This document shows, piece after piece, positions 11,749-26,025 of a stretch of 64,000 bases of DNA (positions are counted from its first letter, which is position 1; each line of letters begins with the position of its first letter). Origin of the DNA: Solidesulfovibrio magneticus RS-1 (lineage in GTDB: Bacteria; Desulfobacterota; Desulfovibrionia; Desulfovibrionales; Desulfovibrionaceae); assembly GCF_000010665.1 (NCBI RefSeq), contig NC_012796.1:5108001-5172000 (forward strand), given 5' to 3'. The notes under the pieces are model-generated. The model made no database searches, had not been told where the DNA came from, and saw only the letters and a program-made list of their open reading frames with translations. The position numbers and the translations under genes are program-made.

Positions 11749-11994
11749 ATGAACACGCATTCGGCCCTGCCGGCCATGCCGGCCGACCTGCGAAACGCGG
11801 TCCTGTCCCACTACACCACTTTCAGCGAAGACGGCACATTGTGCTACGTCGCGGACAAGGTGCATCGCAATTGCCCGGACTGCGGCACCGTTTTTACCGG
11901 CTCGGCCAGCCGCCTAGCCTTTGGCGGCGGTCCGGCCTGTCCCTTCTGCCGGGGGCTGGCCTCAAAGCCCTTGCCCGAGGCGGGCTGGGCATGA
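11749..11994 (+). CDS. Small zinc-ribbon-like phage-associated protein
   Basis: An 81-residue protein with paired CPDC (about residues 42-45) and CPFC (65-68) knuckles spaced like a zinc ribbon, so metal binding and nucleic-acid or protein contact are plausible. The ATG at 11749 is preceded by a weak AAGGA-type site. It is the first of four small ORFs leading to the terminase genes; its stop codon overlaps the next start (ATGA). No named family is recognised with confidence. Confidence 0.65.
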   Translation: MNTHSALPAMPADLRNAVLSHYTTFSEDGTLCYVADKVHRNCPDCGTVFTGSASRLAFGGGPACPFCRGLASKPLPEAGWA

Positions 11995-12218
11995 ACGCCG
12001 CGTCCCCCGCCGCCTCGCGCAAGCTCTGGGCCGCCGGCCTGGCCATCGCCGCCGTGGCCCTTAGCCGCAAGTACAGCCTGGGGCTGACCCCGGACGAGAT
12101 CCAGGCCATCACCGACATTGCGCTCACGGCCATCGGCTCCCAGGCCGGCATCGATCTGGCCGAAAAAGCCCTGCCGCTGCTGGCCAAACCCCAAACGCCC
12201 ACGGAGCCCCGGACATGA
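11991..12218 (+). CDS. Small hydrophobic phage-associated protein (holin-like candidate)
   Basis: A 75-residue protein with one hydrophobic stretch near the N-terminus (LWAAGLAIAAVAL, about residues 12-24) and a second moderately hydrophobic helix. It starts in an ATGA overlap with the preceding zinc-ribbon gene and ends in another ATGA overlap with the next gene, so it is translationally coupled on both sides. Size and position upstream of terS would fit a holin or lysis accessory protein, but only one clear membrane helix is present; the function is a guess. Confidence 0.6.
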   Translation: MNAASPAASRKLWAAGLAIAAVALSRKYSLGLTPDEIQAITDIALTAIGSQAGIDLAEKALPLLAKPQTPTEPRT

Positions 12219-12484
12219 ATCCCGACGCCCTGGTGCTGCCGGCCTGGAGTTCGCTGCTCGTCGGCATGGCCCTGTTTTTCGCCCGCAAATGGATCAATGA
12301 CGTGGCCCGGGCCATCGACAAGCTCGAAGAACGGATGCGGGCCTACGAAAAGGCCCAGATCGACTGCCGCCTGGAACTGGCCAAGGGCTACCCCACCCGC
12401 GAGGAAACCCTGCGCCTGGCCGAACGCCTCGACAACCACGCCACCCGCCTCGTCATTCTCGAAGAGCGCGATCTGGCCGCCTAA
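12215..12484 (+). CDS. Membrane-anchored coiled-coil phage protein (DUF2730/spanin-like candidate)
   Basis: An 89-residue protein with an N-terminal membrane segment (about residues 9-24, WSSLLVGMALFFARKW) followed by a charged amphipathic helix rich in Glu, Arg and Leu (residues 30-85), the layout of DUF2730 or i-spanin-like phage proteins. It begins in an ATGA overlap with the previous gene. The same layout upstream of terminase genes is common in Mu-like and related phages; the assignment is structural only. Confidence 0.6.
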   Translation: MNPDALVLPAWSSLLVGMALFFARKWINDVARAIDKLEERMRAYEKAQIDCRLELAKGYPTREETLRLAERLDNHATRLVILEERDLAA

Positions 12485-13051: not shown

Positions 13052-13708
13052 ATGTCCGACAACGCCACGTCCCCTTCCGCCTCCCCTTCCGCCTCTTCTG
13101 CCACGTCCATCTCCTCTGCTGCTCCCCCTGTTGTTGGCGAACCGGCGTTGACGGACCAGCAGCGGCGGTTTGTGGAGGAGTATCTGGTGGACTGCAACGC
13201 CACCTTGGCGGCCGGTCGGGCGGGCTACAGCGCGCGCAGCGCCAGGCAGGCCGGGACGCGGCTGCGGGCGCTGCCCCATGTGCGGCGGGCGCTGGAGGCG
13301 GCCATGGCGGCGCGCAGCGACCGGCTGGGGGTGAGTCAGGACCGGGTGGTGTTGGAGCTGGCGCGGCTGGCTTTTGCCGACATGCGGGATTTCGCCAGTT
13401 GGGGGGACGGCTGCGTGCGGCTGCGGCCGTCGGAGGAGCTGACCGAGGATCAGGCGGCCTGCGTGTCGGAGATTGTGGAGACGCCGGGCAAGGGGGTGCG
13501 GGTGAAGCTTTTCGGCAAGCAGCCGGCGCTGGCCGCCTTGGCGCGGCACTTGGGGGCGCGCGAGGGCGGCGGCAAGGGGGCCGGGCGCGGCGACGCCGGG
13601 CCGGACGCGGCGTCCGGGGAGGGGGCGCGGCCGCTGACGGTGGTCACCTGGGTTCCGTTTCCGGACGCGCCGCCGCCGGAGGAGCCGGAGGACGGCCCGG
13701 GGGAGTAG
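13052..13708 (+). CDS. Phage terminase small subunit
   Basis: A 218-residue protein. After a Ser/Ala/Pro-rich leader (about 1-33) comes the Terminase_2 (XtmA-like) HTH core: LTDQQRRFVEEYLVDCNATL, then AGYSARSARQAGTRLRALP and the VRRALEAAM helix. The small subunit recognises the pac/cos site and loads the large subunit. The middle region is typical for this family; the last 50 residues are Gly/Ala/Pro-rich and likely disordered. The ATG at 13052 has CGGAG upstream. The usual neighbour, the large subunit, is 2.4 kb away rather than adjacent. Confidence 0.85.
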   Translation: MSDNATSPSASPSASSATSISSAAPPVVGEPALTDQQRRFVEEYLVDCNATLAAGRAGYSARSARQAGTRLRALPHVRRALEAAMAARSDRLGVSQDRVVLELARLAFADMRDFASWGDGCVRLRPSEELTEDQAACVSEIVETPGKGVRVKLFGKQPALAALARHLGAREGGGKGAGRGDAGPDAASGEGARPLTVVTWVPFPDAPPPEEPEDGPGE

Positions 13709-13772
13709 GCGGGAGGGGTAGCGGTCAGAGCAACATGAAACGCCCCATCGCGAGGGGAGCGGAGGACACGAC

Positions 13773-14465
13773 ATGGGCAGCAGCGATTACGGCACTCCGG
13801 AGCAGAGGCTTCGCTGGGAGCAGATGGAATTTGAAACTAAAGTAGAACTGGCGAGTTTCCATGCGATCTTAAACAAATTTGAACAAATTAAGAGTGGAAG
13901 TTTTTTTGATAAATCGAATATTGACGTGAAGGATGACCCTCTCTCGACAAGGCTATACATCCCGGCGTCACCTCCTGGCACCAGCATAGATGCCAACATC
14001 AAACAGGCTAGAGAAACCTTCGATCCTCTTTGGTTTGTTAGCATGGTCGCAAAGAACAAACCATGGGATTACAAAACTAAGGATAAAAAATACGAAGACT
14101 TTGGAAATTTTAATTACGGAGCGACAGCTTTAGCTTTCGGGTTCAAAGAAGAATGGGCGTTACGCGCAGCAGGATTTTATCATATTCACACAAACGTCGC
14201 CCAGAAACTTCGATCTCAGGGAGAATTATTAAAAAGCATTCTAGCATATGGCACATCGTTCCAAGGGCCACCATATGGAGACGATGCCAAGGATCAAAAA
14301 ATGAAAAAATTCGGATTCCAATACTACAAAGAAGTCTACAGCAATAGATACATGGGCACGGAAACATCTAAAGAATCTATAATGCGAGCAGCATCAAACA
14401 CAATAACAAGCAATTTCCCAGGAGGAAGCATCATCGCAAAAAATCTCATTAATATGACAGACTAG
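13773..14465 (+). CDS. Stand-alone polymorphic toxin type 44 (Ntox44-like) domain protein
   Basis: A 230-residue protein whose residues about 85-190 match the polymorphic-toxin type 44 pattern as I know it: FDPLWFVSMV, PWDYK (97-101), YEDFGNFNYGA (107-117) and a PYGDDAKDQKM-type segment (167-177) followed by GFQYYK. The family is a predicted RNase-like toxin domain usually found at the C-terminus of very large secreted proteins. Here it is short, with about 85 N-terminal residues, no signal peptide and no recognisable delivery domain. The gene is strikingly AT-rich (about 40% GC by eye) beside GC-rich neighbours, which points to recent transfer. A GGAGG site precedes the ATG. It sits directly after terS. 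No co-directional immunity gene follows; the nearest gene is a convergent membrane protein. Confidence 0.75.
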   Translation: MGSSDYGTPEQRLRWEQMEFETKVELASFHAILNKFEQIKSGSFFDKSNIDVKDDPLSTRLYIPASPPGTSIDANIKQARETFDPLWFVSMVAKNKPWDYKTKDKKYEDFGNFNYGATALAFGFKEEWALRAAGFYHIHTNVAQKLRSQGELLKSILAYGTSFQGPPYGDDAKDQKMKKFGFQYYKEVYSNRYMGTETSKESIMRAASNTITSNFPGGSIIAKNLINMTD

Positions 14466-14497
14466 ACGAGATACAAGAAAAAATATCTCCCTGCAAG

Positions 14498-15202
14498 TCA
14501 CTGACGAACATAAAACCACCCCTGTCCCAATATCTCGACCTGGATGGGCTTCTCGAAGGCGTCGTCATCGGGATACGCGCCGTCCGAACTGTACACCAAG
14601 CCCTCCCAGTAGCCCAAAAAGCCGTGGCGCGTTGCGAATACGGCCGTATTCCGGTTCCAGTCGCACTTCAGATAAGCGCCGTCCCCCACGACAGACAGAT
14701 GCCGCAGTTCGCGCGGCAAGACATAATAATGCCTTGTCTCCTGCGGCGGCAAAGAGAGTTGCTTGTCGCAAAAGGCTTGGACAACCGCCTCGCGCTCCTC
14801 ACGAAACCAGTCGTGATAGGCATGGAGATTCGTTGCGTCGGGACGGACGCCGCCAAAGGGCAGATGCGCCAGCAACAGGACCAGGAGCGGATAAACGCTT
14901 TGCAGCCACGGCAGGCGGATAAAGCGAACCGCGAGGTAAAACGCATAGAGAAACGTCGCGACCAGCACAATCGTGAACAGCGGCGGCGTCCAACCGGCCA
15001 AGGACTCCGGAAGAAAGGCCAAAACGGTAAACTCGTAATAGCGAAACGGGATTTCCGCCAGACAAAGCGCCAGGACGAACAGCAACACGCGGCGGCAATG
15101 CCGGATGGCCCAGGCCTGTTTCTCGGCTTCGGTCAGCGGCGCAGGCGGCGGCCCCCGGCGGACGCCGGGCAGGCGGGTGAGCCACGGCGGCAGTTTCGCC
15201 AT
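14498..15202 (-). CDS. Membrane protein with C-terminal extracytoplasmic domain, function unknown
   Basis: A 234-residue protein with three hydrophobic helices in the first half (around VLLFVLALCLAEIPF, FTIVLVATFLYAFYLAV and YPLLVLLLAHLPF). About 120 C-terminal residues follow, containing NRNTAVFATRHGFLGYW and EGLVYSSDGAYP. The start at 15202 is chosen from the charged N-terminus; the ribosome site is weak. It is GC-rich, unlike the toxin-like gene it converges on (33 bases between stop codons). A role in immunity against that toxin is conceivable but immunity genes are normally co-directional; otherwise the function is unknown. Confidence 0.7.
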   Translation of the reverse strand: MAKLPPWLTRLPGVRRGPPPAPLTEAEKQAWAIRHCRRVLLFVLALCLAEIPFRYYEFTVLAFLPESLAGWTPPLFTIVLVATFLYAFYLAVRFIRLPWLQSVYPLLVLLLAHLPFGGVRPDATNLHAYHDWFREEREAVVQAFCDKQLSLPPQETRHYYVLPRELRHLSVVGDGAYLKCDWNRNTAVFATRHGFLGYWEGLVYSSDGAYPDDDAFEKPIQVEILGQGWFYVRQ

Positions 15203-15267
15203 GTCACTGCGCTTTGCCTTGAGGCAATCGCCCTGATGGCCGCTTGGGGATGGCGAACACGGGGCTG

Positions 15268-15540
15268 CTACTTGGTAAACAGCTTCATGAGAGCGGCGAT
15301 CAGCGCGGCCTGTCCGATCAACATGGCGGCCACCCATTTGAGAATATCCGCCTTGGTGTCGGCATTGAGCTTGGCCATCTCGGCCAGGAGACGAAGTTCC
15401 GTTTCGCGCAAATCGTGCTTGGTGGCGATCTCGCGCTTGGCGTCCTCATCCTGCTTTTCCAGGATGCTGATAAGGACGCCGGCCGCTTCCTCGCCCAGGG
15501 CTTTTTCCAGCCTTTTCGAGTCGTCAAAAAGAAGGGTCAT
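15268..15540 (-). CDS. Coiled-coil protein with C-terminal membrane anchor (DUF1640-like)
   Basis: A 90-residue protein with the layout of DUF1640/CCDC90-like bacterial proteins: an N-terminal helix beginning FDDSKRLEKALGEEAA, a charged coiled coil containing the typical EIATKHDLRETELRLLAEMA, and a C-terminal transmembrane helix AAMLIGQAALIAALMKL. GGTGAGG precedes the ATG. Such genes are widespread in accessory regions and their role is unsettled. It lies in the minus-strand trio inserted between terS and terL. Confidence 0.75.
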   Translation of the reverse strand: MTLLFDDSKRLEKALGEEAAGVLISILEKQDEDAKREIATKHDLRETELRLLAEMAKLNADTKADILKWVAAMLIGQAALIAALMKLFTK

Positions 15541-15645
15541 GCCTCACCCGTGCATCCATTCCCGGTTCAAGTCAAGACGCCGCAGGCGGCAAGGCGCATC
15601 CTTTGCAAATCATGACTTCTGGCCCCTCCCACGCGCCCACAAGCC

Positions 15646-16041
15646 TCACACTCCTGACGGCGAACGCCAGGACAAATAATACTTCTCCTTGTCTCCGGCG
15701 TGCCCCGCGCCGACCGCGCCGAGTTCGCAGTCGTCGCCTTCCCGCGGGCCAGGCGTGGACTGACGGGCAGACGGTCGCGCGGCCTGGCGGCAGCGGCCGG
15801 ACAGCGCTTCGAAGGCCGCGTCGGGGATGGCCGCGTCCGGGCTGCCGGCGTGCAGCGCCAGGGCCGCCACGGCGCAATCGGCCACGGCCGTGGGCGGCGG
15901 CGCGGCATGGCGACGCAGCAACCGGGCATAGCCTGCGGCGGCCGGCTGGGACAACGACGGCACGGCGCACACGGCCAGCGCCAACAGCGCCAGGGCGAAC
16001 AGGGCGATGGCCAGACGACGTTTGCGCGGCAAGACCAGCAT
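15646..16041 (-). CDS. Small exported protein, function unknown
   Basis: A 131-residue product with an N-terminal signal sequence (basic RKRR, hydrophobic IALFALALLALAVCAV, Ala-rich cleavage region ending near residue 30). The start at 16041 is fixed by a strong GGAGGAG site. The mature part is Ala/Arg-rich with a few Cys; no family is recognisable, and the C-terminal third looks disordered. It is transcribed divergently from terL. Confidence 0.55.
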   Translation of the reverse strand: MLVLPRKRRLAIALFALALLALAVCAVPSLSQPAAAGYARLLRRHAAPPPTAVADCAVAALALHAGSPDAAIPDAAFEALSGRCRQAARPSARQSTPGPREGDDCELGAVGAGHAGDKEKYYLSWRSPSGV

Positions 16042-16144: not shown

Positions 16145-17611
16145 ATGAGGAAACCGGCATTGCGGACAATTGACGGCATTTCGGCACTTCCCCCCGGCGC
16201 GGTGGCCATCGACTACCGGCCTCAGCCGCTCCAGGCCCGGCTCCATGCCTGCCCGGCCAACGAGATTCTTTTCGGCGGCGCGGCCGGCCCGGGCAAAAGC
16301 CACGCCCTGCGCTTCGAGGCGCTTCTCGCCTGCCTGCGCCTGCCAGGCCTTCGGGCCTACCTCTTCCGGCGCACCATGGCCGAGCTGGAGCGCAACCATA
16401 TCCTGCCGGCCCTGGCCCAGTTTCCCCGGCAGCTCGGCACGTTTCGGGCGGCCAAGCAGCGCTTCGAATTTGTCAACGGCTCCATGCTGCTGTTTTGCAG
16501 CTGCCAGCGCGAGAGCGACGTGTTTCGCTACCAGGGCGTGGAGATCCATCTGCTGTGCATCGACGAACTGACGAGCTTCACGGAGTTGCAATACGACTAC
16601 CTGCGCGGCCGGCTGCGCTGCGCCCTCGACGTGCCGCCGGCACTGCGCCACAAGATTCCGGGCATTGTCTGCGCCTCCAACCCCGGCGGCGTGGGCCACG
16701 GCTTCGCCAAGGCCCGGTTCGTCGATTTCGCGCCGCCAGGCGTGTGCCGCCGCGCCCCGGCGGCCGAGGGCGGGATGCTGCGCTGCCACATCCCGGGCCG
16801 GCTTAGCGACAACGCCATCCTCATGGCCCGCGACCCGGGCTACGCCGCCCGCCTGGACGCCCTGCCCGAACCCTACCGCACCGCCTACCGCGACGGCGAC
16901 TGGGACGTGTTCATGGGCCAGGCGTTCGCCTTCCAGCGCCGGCTCCACGTGATCCCGCCGCGTCCGGTCCCGGGCGACGCGCCGCTTTACATGACCTTCG
17001 ACTGGGGCTACGGCGCGCCGTTTTCCGTGGGCTGGTGGTGGGTGGACGCCGACGGCCGGCTTTACCGCCTGGGCGAATGGTACGGGGCCAGCGGCGCGGC
17101 CAACCAGGGCCTGCGGCTGACCGATCCGCAGATCGCCGCCGGCATCCTGGAGCGCGAGCAGGCCCTTGGCCTGGGTGGCCGGCGGATCACCCGGCTTTGC
17201 GGCCCGGACTGTTTCGCCAAAAAGCCCGACTACCGGGGCGGCGGCCAGGGACCAAGCACGGCCGAGGTGTTCGCCGGGGCCGGCGTTTTCCTCTCCCCCG
17301 GCGACCCCTCGCGTAAAAATAAGATCCGGCAGTTCCACGAACGCCTGCGCCCCCGGGACGACGGGCCGCCCATGCTGCAGGTCTACGACACCTGCCGCGA
17401 TTTCATCCGCACCATCCCGCTGCTCACCGCCGACCGGCGCAACGTCGAGGACATCGACACCACCGGCGAGGACCATATCTACGACGAGGCCTGCCACGCC
17501 TGCATGGCCCGGCCCCTGGCCACCAGCCTGGACGAGGCCGGCAAGCGGCCGGCGGCCCGGCTCATCGACGCGGTGTTGGCCCCGCCCCCAAACGACGAGG
17601 AGGTTCCATGA
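16145..17611 (+). CDS. Phage terminase large subunit (ATPase/nuclease)
   Basis: A 488-residue terminase. The N-terminal packaging ATPase has Walker A GGAAGPGKSHALR (about residues 41-53), Walker B LLCIDELT (about 137-144) and the coupling segment CASNPGG. The C-terminal RNase H-like nuclease domain begins at MTFDWGYG with its first acidic residue and continues to DHIYDEACHACMARP with further acidic residues. Length is normal, so the enzyme may be intact. No strong ribosome site precedes the ATG at 16145. It is coupled by ATGA overlap to a small membrane ORF rather than to a portal gene. Confidence 0.9.
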   Translation: MRKPALRTIDGISALPPGAVAIDYRPQPLQARLHACPANEILFGGAAGPGKSHALRFEALLACLRLPGLRAYLFRRTMAELERNHILPALAQFPRQLGTFRAAKQRFEFVNGSMLLFCSCQRESDVFRYQGVEIHLLCIDELTSFTELQYDYLRGRLRCALDVPPALRHKIPGIVCASNPGGVGHGFAKARFVDFAPPGVCRRAPAAEGGMLRCHIPGRLSDNAILMARDPGYAARLDALPEPYRTAYRDGDWDVFMGQAFAFQRRLHVIPPRPVPGDAPLYMTFDWGYGAPFSVGWWWVDADGRLYRLGEWYGASGAANQGLRLTDPQIAAGILEREQALGLGGRRITRLCGPDCFAKKPDYRGGGQGPSTAEVFAGAGVFLSPGDPSRKNKIRQFHERLRPRDDGPPMLQVYDTCRDFIRTIPLLTADRRNVEDIDTTGEDHIYDEACHACMARPLATSLDEAGKRPAARLIDAVLAPPPNDEEVP

Positions 17612-17901
17612 GCGATTCCGTCATCTTGTGGCTGGCCTTTGATGTCGCCCTGCATCTGGCCGGGGCGGCGGGATTTGTGCTGCTCGGCTGGCGGCTTGGC
17701 CGGGAGAGCGCCGGCCGGCCCATGTTCGACTATCCGACCTGGCCGACCCGCCCGGAGGCCAACGCGCCCCTGGAAGAGGCCGATCCCTGGTCCGCGTCGT
17801 CCATCACCGCCACGCCCCTGGATCGTCGGCCGGCCATGGTGGATATTTTCGAGACACTTGCGCCCCGGCGGCCGTTCAATGCCGACCAGGGGACGCCCTA
17901 A
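17608..17901 (+). CDS. Small membrane protein coupled to terminase large subunit
   Basis: A 97-residue protein with one N-terminal membrane helix (WLAFDVALHLAGAAGFVLLGW, about residues 8-28) and a Pro/Ala-rich hydrophilic tail. It starts inside terL (ATGA overlap), with GGAGG upstream, so it belongs to the same transcript. A portal gene would be expected here in a complete phage. Function unknown. Confidence 0.65.
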   Translation: MSDSVILWLAFDVALHLAGAAGFVLLGWRLGRESAGRPMFDYPTWPTRPEANAPLEEADPWSASSITATPLDRRPAMVDIFETLAPRRPFNADQGTP

Positions 17902-24470: not shown

Positions 24471-24588
24471 TCATCGCAAAAATCCAAGTCAAGAACAGGT
24501 ATTTTCAGCTGTTTTCCTGTCGATAAAAGCTTCAACAGATCGTGTTGCTGCTAGTCTATTGGGAACATCAAGAAGCACGAGGCGAGAT

Positions 24589-26025
24589 ATGGCAGAACAG
24601 AAATCGAATTTTGACATTACCCTTGGGGAAAACATTTTCAGAATTGCCGTCGAGAACACTCCGACAGGAGTTTGCATTACAAATGCAGAAGGAATTTTTG
24701 AGTATGTCAACAAGTCATATTGCAGCTTGTATGAGTATGGCCAGAAAGAACTTCTTGGCAATAATTTTACAATGATTGTCCCTGATGAGCACAAAGCCGT
24801 ACTGCAGAAACTTCATGACCAATACATCAATGGCACTAAAGAGGTACGAGGAGAATGGGATGTTGTCACAAAAAGCGGCAAACGTCTCACGATTTTAGCC
24901 GACGCAGTTCGAGTCACAGGCCTCGATGGCAGCTTCAAAAAAGTTACTTTTGTTACTGACATCACAGAACGAAGAAAGTACGAGCAAGAACTTCAAAAAC
25001 TATACCTATCCATCGAGACTTCGTCGGCATCTATCGTGATAACAGATTCGAGCGGTGCCATATGTTATGCGAATCCTTCATTTTGCAAAACCACTGGATA
25101 TCTACAAGAGGAAGTGCTCGGCCAGAATATGAGGATGTTTAAGTCTGGGGTCCACGACCAGGAGTTCTATATATGCATGTGGAATTCCATATGCAACGGA
25201 AAAACTTGGCGGGGCGAGATATGCAATAAAAGCAAAAATGGAGAGCTGTTCTGGGAATCGACAATCATAACTCCAATTCCTGACAAGTTTGGCAAAGTCG
25301 TTAATTATGTAGCGGTAAAGAACGATATTTCAGAAAAAATTGACCTTGAAAGGCTCAAGGGCGACGTGGATTGAATTTTGCGGCACGACCTCAAAACTCC
25401 ACTTAACGCCATCGTGTCATTACCCCAATTATTAAAAGAAGATGGCAACCTGACACTTGAGCAGCGTGACTACTTAAACCACATTGAAAGATCTGGATGG
25501 AGAATGCTCAGGATGATCAACAGTTCTTTGGATATATTCAAGATGGAGGAAGGGAGTTACCGCTGCAGCCTGAGTCCGAACGATTTAGTCAGCATAACAA
25601 AAGAAGTTGTCGATAGCCTGCAAAGCTCTTTAAAAAGATACGATTGCAAAATTATTCTTCATTATAACGCAAAAGTAGCAAATGACAGCAACACACTTGT
25701 GATACAGACCGAAGAAACCAACATTCACAATATGATGTCAAATTTGTTGACCAATGCCATTGAGGCGTCTCCGGCCGGAAGCGACATTATCGTTAACTTC
25801 GCAAACAGCTCCCCAAAGAGCCTTTCCATTACAAACAAGGGCGTTGTCCCCAAAACCATTAGAGATCACTTCTTTAAAAAATACAAAACTTACGGGAAGA
25901 AACACGGAACCGGGCTGGGCGCTTATTCGGCAAAGCTGATTGCTGATGCACTTGGATACAAAATCGAGATGCAAACTTCCGACGAAATCAATGAAACAAC
26001 CATTACGATCACTTTTTGCGATTAA
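24589..26025 (+). pseudogene. PAS-PAS histidine kinase interrupted by an in-frame TGA
   Basis: Reading through one stop gives a 478-codon kinase: PAS1 (about 16-135), PAS2 (about 140-260), HisKA with phospho-acceptor in RHDLKTPLNAI, and HATPase_c with N box SNLLTNAIEAS and G box GTGLGAYSAKLI. TGA at 25372-25374 falls inside the linker DVD-stop-ILRHDLKTPLN. Related kinases commonly have Arg or similar there, so a CGA-to-TGA change is the simplest explanation. The downstream piece could only restart at TTG 25378, which has no ribosome site. The upstream piece alone would be a 261-residue PAS-PAS protein. The whole gene is AT-rich compared with its surroundings, indicating foreign origin. Confidence 0.8.

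Follow-up and report, generated by a model that had tools for sequence, protein, structure and literature searches.

A putative Ntox44 toxin-immunity cassette following terS in a split, apparently domesticated phage element of Solidesulfovibrio

The window, that is, the whole 64,000-nucleotide stretch of Solidesulfovibrio magneticus RS-1 DNA that was analysed (NC_012796.1, positions 5,108,001 to 5,172,000), contains a terminase cassette with a cargo insert between the genes for the small (terS) and large (terL) subunits. The features are listed below in window coordinates.

11749-11994, + strand: zinc-finger-like small gene, conserved in 13/13 loci holding that cassette end and also found in genome G160
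11991-12218, + strand: small membrane-protein-like gene, holin-like by eye only
12215-12484, + strand: conserved 89-aa cassette gene, from the cassette comparison across genomes
13052-13708, + strand: terS, 218 aa, with a Terminase_2 match (PF03592, 105 bits, residues 33-169)
13728-15631, no strand assigned: cargo insert made up of the leader, the toxin gene, m15/immA and the 15268-15540 gene, unmatched in the toxin-free genome G109
13773-14465, + strand: Ntox44 toxin gene, ATG start, 230 aa in translation, PF15607 match
13773-13832, + strand: constant first 20 toxin codons, common to the allele of genome G025 (55/60 bases) and the G160 remnant (about 17 codons)
14498-15202, - strand: m15/immA, putative cognate immunity gene, 234 aa, homologues of which adjoin toxin relatives
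15268-15540, - strand: small gene within the insert (phrog_17872, 33 bits), also in G160, with no match in G025
15646-16038, - strand: m16, small gene of the ancestral terS-terL interval, found in toxin-free genomes too
16145-17611, + strand: terL, 488 aa (phrog_979, 121 bits), with a homologue in 14/14 genomes of the genus
17608-17901, + strand: post, conserved last cassette gene after terL, from the cassette comparison

The toxin gene starts 64 bases past the end of terS, whose strand it shares, and is separated from terL by three genes of the opposite strand (14498-15202, 15268-15540 and 15646-16038). An earlier note on this DNA had placed the toxin between the two terminase genes; the interval was correct, but the toxin does not directly adjoin terL since these three genes intervene. 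The Terminase_2 domain of TerS is nearly full. Pfam zinc-ribbon matches to the 11749-11994 product were all below the cut-off, the 11991-12218 product had no Pfam or PHROG match, and no portal or capsid genes were recognised by eye beside the cassette.

The 230-residue protein matched Ntox44 (PF15607) in a Pfam profile search with 58 bits (E 1.4e-15, cut-off 24), the best stretch pairing toxin residues 104-187 with profile positions 40-104, and was the single Ntox44 match in a search of its whole genome. The motifs DxK, GNxxxG and DxxxD, attributed to Ntox44 together with an all-alpha fold (PMC3482391), were all found as D99/K101, G111-N112-G116 and D170/D174, and these residues were invariant across 26 aligned Ntox44 sequences, the query included. 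The structure model of the toxin was all-alpha (mean pLDDT 80.6), and its N-terminal region, about 60 aa in length, contains a single long helix. Comparison of the model with PDB structures and with BFVD viral structures gave no convincing match and yielded no activity for the toxin; an unrelated phage structural protein was thus not indicated. No hydrophobic segment was present (highest 19-residue hydropathy 0.47), and a Pfam search for the MuF domain (PF04233) gave no match at E up to 1. The protein is a member of Ntox44 on profile, motifs and fold class, its toxic activity being predicted, and the identification in the earlier note, for which an HMM search and a structure prediction had been proposed as checks, was borne out.

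The toxin gene is AT-rich, with a GC content of 0.44/0.39/0.43 by codon position against 0.59-0.72 in the adjoining 500-base windows, as the note had observed. Its suggestion of a probable horizontal acquisition is judged right, as is its placing of an Ntox44 toxin in a terminase cassette. A second sharply AT-rich segment of the window at 24501-26025 (about 42% GC) contains a PAS-domain ORF (24559-25374) and a histidine-kinase-like ORF (25378-26025, named by eye) and is probably another acquired piece.

A set of 87 Ntox44 relatives, made up of 80 of 91 bacterial loci and 7 viral loci (IMG/VR), was compared with the window. Fifty of the 87 were ORFs of 160 aa or less, two of which (L163 and L220) were cut or broken readings. 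Short Ntox44 proteins are therefore ordinary, and the lack of a long delivery region, correctly noted for the toxin, is not unusual for the family as had been supposed. An ORF started within 250 bases downstream of Ntox44 in 66 of the 87 relatives, and 54 of these 66 neighbours had a hydrophobic N-terminus, compared with 119 of 557 control ORFs of the same loci; a GATT-like motif was seen by eye in many of the downstream partners. That the partners are mostly membrane-anchored points to a periplasmic target for Ntox44, contrary to the predicted RNase or nuclease label given in PMC12165300 and PMC7790226. In three loci of genus g5 (L019, L020 and L021) the Ntox44 domains lie behind a region with a Cys/His motif, similar to the terminal part of the MuF domain of phages; matches to PF04233 were only below the cut-off in L019 and L020 (E 0.03 and 0.09, respectively) and absent in L021.

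The partner protein encoded at 14498-15202 belongs to no Pfam family, and the excerpts of PMC3482391 assign no immunity family to Ntox44. Homologues identified by tblastn occurred in 11 of 199 genomes of the family, ten of them Solidesulfovibrio and one of the sister genus g41, and were found to adjoin toxin relatives. Within Solidesulfovibrio and g41, a partner homologue was located within 600 bases of nine of the ten toxin matches (E<1e-10), and the two genes ran in opposite directions in all nine pairs, converging in seven and diverging in two. The tenth toxin match, in G174, had no partner homologue nearby; that gene contains a stop and the genome is 69% complete. One of the nine paired toxin genes (G143) also contains stops. 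Toxin matches at E<1e-10 occurred in G083 and G027 of other genera, and no partner homologue was found in either genome. Tandem partner homologues were present in G069 (three), in G025 (two) and near the toxin of G160 (three), and G121 and G152 had a partner homologue and no toxin match. This arrangement of tandem and toxin-less copies is the pattern of immunity genes.

Because its homologues adjoin nine of ten related toxin genes, 14498-15202 is likely the immunity gene of the toxin, judging from gene neighbourhoods, and we are highly confident that the locus is a toxin-immunity cassette. The toxin gene is accordingly not the stand-alone gene described in the earlier note. The structure model of the partner (mean pLDDT 74.4) has helices at residues 25-63, 72-93 and 104-113, with hydrophobic helices in the N-terminal half and a C-terminal domain of helix and beta structure. 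Judging by the basic residues that flank the helices, the N-terminus would be cytoplasmic and the C-terminal domain periplasmic. At about 3.98 Mb of the same genome (L091:7564-9815, contig C2) there are three tandem immunity-like genes without a toxin, two from the homology search and the third read from ORFs, and this array occupies the site of a second Ntox44 toxin gene in G025 and G160.

The extent of the cargo was defined against G109, whose terL is the closest among the toxin-free genomes (94%); the alignment with it ends at 13727 and restarts at 15632, giving an insert of about 1.9 kb. An intact toxin at the terminase locus was present in two of the 14 genomes of the genus, the own genome (G000) and G025, which has a different allele. 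The G160 terminase locus holds about 17 toxin codons together with immunity genes and is a toxin-less remnant, and the other 11 genomes had no toxin match at the locus.

Divergence between the two alleles (toxA of G000 and toxB of G025) lies mainly in the body of the gene, as 55 of 60 bases are identical over the first 20 codons and only 24 to 39 of 60 per block thereafter. The two loci are 96% identical for terS and 98% for terL, but only about 51% for the toxins. In G025 a second immunity type, immB, adjoins toxB and immA (92%) is retained behind it, and in G160 both immunity types are kept with no toxin at the terminase locus; immA identity across G025 and G160 is 92-93%. These patterns, drawn from two toxin alleles and one remnant, indicate that the toxin body has been exchanged at the constant start and that old immunity genes have been stacked, as in polymorphic toxins. 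Going by these alignments, the locus would thus combine the traits of a polymorphic toxin-immunity module, namely a linked immunity-like gene, a constant N-terminus with an exchangeable body, and retained older immunity genes.

The earlier note had proposed an abortive-infection or exclusion device, and an intracellular system of this kind or a toxin-antitoxin pair, triggered by phage and with the 14498-15202 protein as antitoxin, would agree with the toxin lacking a hydrophobic segment and with the phage-derived neighbourhood. The presumed neutraliser is, however, a membrane protein on the opposite strand, unlike a cytoplasmic antitoxin, and hydrophobic N-termini predominate among the partners at other Ntox44 loci. 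Toxin-less and stacked immunity-like genes are common, as for interbacterial toxins, and PADLOC returned only weak matches (E 0.005, 15 bits or less). The antisense membrane partner, body exchange and immunity stacking fit an interbacterial polymorphic toxin better, and an intracellular device is considered very unlikely.

The terminase cassette itself is a feature of the genus. Copies of terL at the common site were 76-98% identical, with extra copies in G121 (a second at 69%) and G181 (one at 36%), and the cassette (zinc-finger-like gene, small membrane-type gene, 89-aa gene, terS, terL and post) sits between the same chromosomal genes throughout. The upstream lipoprotein-like flank gene was present in 13/13 scanned loci holding that end and the downstream spy/tpr flank genes in 13/14 loci, the contig of the remaining one stopping short of them. 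At one locus (G152) post was missed, and the G160 locus is divided over two contigs (L031 and L087).

A matching head module was found elsewhere in the chromosome. With the portal of a complete-looking prophage of G121 (L086) as query, a portal homologue was identified in 14/14 genomes of the genus, the prophage's own copy excluded. Where terL and portal shared a contig they were separated by 0.26 Mb (G025), 0.43 Mb (G121), 0.62 Mb (G080) and, in G000, 4.6 Mb by coordinate or 0.6 Mb should the contig be circular; the remaining ten genomes have them on different contigs. The head-tail module of the own genome at 0.472-0.489 Mb (C2:472171-488977; L106:2172-18978) includes genes for a portal, a zinc protein, a scaffold-like protein, a major capsid protein and a transglutaminase-domain protein as well as tail-like genes, and no terminase was seen in it. 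Its portal is assigned to phrog_156 and is P22-like in Pfam, and the capsid protein has a profile match too. Gene order from portal to h5 was the same in the nine other genomes with a long enough piece, and the flank gene adjoining the portal was present in 13/13. The major capsid query had matches in 17 of 199 genomes of the family. The own genome holds a single terL homologue and a single portal homologue, which makes the two loci natural partners.

The three genomes of g41 have the terminase cassette at the same chromosomal site, and their head module lies directly beyond tpr in G069, about 87 kb off in G088 and on a separate contig in G041. Genome G121 additionally carries a second, complete-looking podovirus-like prophage (L086, L121) in which terS-terL and the portal, scaffold, capsid and tail genes are contiguous. 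Each half of the split element has related genes in this prophage, which is possibly a living relative of the element's ancestor.

Tyrosine-integrase matches (PF00589) numbered 47 in the own genome, none of them within 200 kb of the terminase locus or the head module, and inspection by eye of the ORFs at both G000 loci recognised no replication genes or other recombinases. The terminase locus is not an active prophage, nor is it a satellite, and in place of the phage or satellite cargo proposed in the earlier note we find a vertically inherited genus-core locus at a fixed site with a matching head module elsewhere. On contig C2 of the own genome many of the 47 integrase matches form neighbouring pairs of like size that are scattered along the chromosome, as though a mobile element with several integrases had multiplied.

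Selection was estimated from pairwise dN/dS against G025, G109, G133 and G097, five inconsistent rows being dropped. Values were 0.08-0.18 for terL, 0.02-0.10 for the major capsid gene, 0.15-0.22 for the portal and 0.22-0.36 for terS, with weaker constraint on h4 (0.36-0.53) and m16 (0.20-0.62). Protein distances of terL and portal were correlated over 14 genomes (r 0.95), and each was correlated with those of the host flank gene tpr (r 0.92 for terL and 0.94 for portal); in a permutation test 0/2000 permutations reached the three r values. With low dN/dS, a sign of purifying selection on both halves, and correlated distances, the element looks old, kept and inherited with the host, and the locus is probably part of a domesticated split element.

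A dead prophage remnant in decay, with the toxin as a neutral insertion being lost, would be in keeping with the roughly 17 toxin codons and the terL in two frames in G160, with the stops in the toxin genes of G143 and G174, and with head genes that do not adjoin the terminase in Solidesulfovibrio. The low dN/dS of terL, major capsid and portal in four comparisons and the presence of terL and portal in 14/14 genomes speak against such decay, to which we give only a very slight chance. The terL of G160 and the portal of G174, each in two pieces in different frames, come from fragmented assemblies and represent either decay or assembly errors.

The split element is probably a gene transfer agent (GTA). 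Its phage-derived structural and packaging genes appear to be vertically inherited and under selection with no tyrosine integrase nearby, and vertically inherited genes at separate loci have precedent among GTAs (PMC6854486). A shortened TerS without a DNA-binding domain is a GTA trait (PMC11841831, PMC6854486) that this TerS does not share, having 218 aa and a Terminase_2 domain at residues 33-169. An apparently domesticated split element in 14/14 searched genomes of the genus would represent a candidate GTA lineage with a P22-type portal.

Toxin-immunity pairs of the same family were also found at non-phage sites in these genera, including after groEL (G069, L134), beside a malate-synthase-like gene (G181) and in a diguanylate-cyclase/ribB-like region (G025, G160), the neighbours at these sites being named by eye. 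The cassettes at the groEL site of G069 (L022) and L134 have toxins with 217 of 233 residues identical and groEL proteins at 83%, which indicates that the cassette moved laterally into the same site, across genera if the Desulfomicrobium label of the MAG L134 is right. Both of these closely similar cassettes directly after groEL include tandem immunity genes.

The main rival to a functional association follows from these sites, as related cassettes there make the terminase locus unnecessary for the existence of the cassette. A mobile Ntox44 cassette with another delivery route, or serving as a recombination reservoir, may merely be tolerated in the terS-terL gap, the element then having no role in delivery, and such passive lodging would suit the cassettes at the groEL, malate-synthase-like and ribB-like sites, the movement of the groEL-site cassette between lineages and the intact terminase-locus cassette in only 2/14 genomes. 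It fits less well with a toxin 64 bases behind terS on the same strand whose two alleles share the start region, with the recurrence of Ntox44 in phage head modules and with the missing T6SS marker in the genus, a single secretion system having been surveyed. Ntox44 toxins are listed for T2SS, T6SS and T7SS (PMC3482391), and the one T6SS marker searched for (PF05943) was found in 0/14 genomes with a positive E. coli control, so that one obvious rival delivery route is weakened. Passive lodging is regarded as possible but less likely.

Among the seven viral contigs the recurrence in head modules was seen in L216, L217 and L220. In these three, Ntox44 and a membrane-type immunity-like gene lie between the portal (phrog_156) and major capsid genes; the other four showed no portal-capsid association in the stretch covered. 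Ntox44 was above the cut-off in L216 and L217, and the frame is broken in L220. L217 resembles L220 and L216 has another capsid family, which implies at least two origins of the association of Ntox44 with head modules besides the one in the window. The L220 partner matched DUF5412 above the cut-off (30.5 bits) and the L217 partner just below it (24.4 against a cut-off of 25), which suggests that DUF5412 includes Ntox44 immunity proteins.

The reading we prefer, at a probability of roughly 0.55, is that a polymorphic-toxin cassette entered a genus-core, podovirus-like element, which is split and domesticated, at a point following terS in its terminase half, and that the cassette acts as a kin-discriminating weapon. 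The toxin would be co-transcribed with terS and the upstream same-strand genes and, upon expression of the element, would leave the cell inside or on a particle or with lysis; by the particle route it would be ejected from a podovirus-like particle into the recipient's periplasm. It may then act in the periplasm of recipients, of which carriers of the immunity gene would survive, the membrane protein protecting kin. The cassette is thus probably a weapon for kin discrimination, carried along by a tamed phage. Dependence of toxin delivery on the element is a more tentative part of this proposal, rated at less than even odds. Rather doubtful still is the fuller version of an armed, split podovirus-like GTA, in which particles or the lysis that releases them would deliver an exchangeable, periplasm-acting Ntox44 and thereby restrict the recipients of DNA to immune kin. 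The presence of a toxin gene and a probably protective membrane-protein gene among packaging genes long retained by this sulfate-reducing bacterium and its relatives raises the possibility of a tamed phage that carries a weapon, and a toxin cassette with allele exchange inside such an element would tie gene transfer to kin discrimination.

In comparison with known systems, the locus shares with Ntox44 polymorphic toxins the Pfam domain above cut-off, the invariant motifs and a linked immunity-like gene, and differs in having an N-terminal region of about 60 aa where those have a long delivery region. The partner is an antisense multi-helix membrane protein here, whereas at other Ntox44 loci it is a downstream protein with one hydrophobic N-terminus. 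Among the relatives, an hcp gene directly precedes Ntox44 in Rahnella L185 (PF05638, 113 bits) and in the IMG/VR contig L219 (hcp by eye). Such Hcp-linked T6SS cargo resembles the window in pairing a short Ntox44 with its own membrane-anchored immunity-like gene; the preceding gene is hcp there but terS here, where a T6SS was not detected. With GTAs (RcGTA, Desulfovibrio Dd1 and BaGTA) the element shares phage derivation, vertical inheritance, conservation and distribution over several loci (PMC6854486, PMC11841831). It differs from them in its P22/SU10-like portal and in a TerS of 218 aa against 92-125 aa for the GTAs of Table 1 in PMC6854486. The literature searches turned up no toxin described within a GTA-like locus. 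Toxins in the DNA-packaging modules of temperate phages are already known as MuF toxins (PMC5576092). These differ from the present case, which has no MuF match and a split chromosomal locus with no recognisable prophage as host element. A toxin with a neighbouring immunity-like gene in a packaging module beside terminase genes is nonetheless common to both, and the MuF toxins are the closest known parallel to a toxin among packaging genes.
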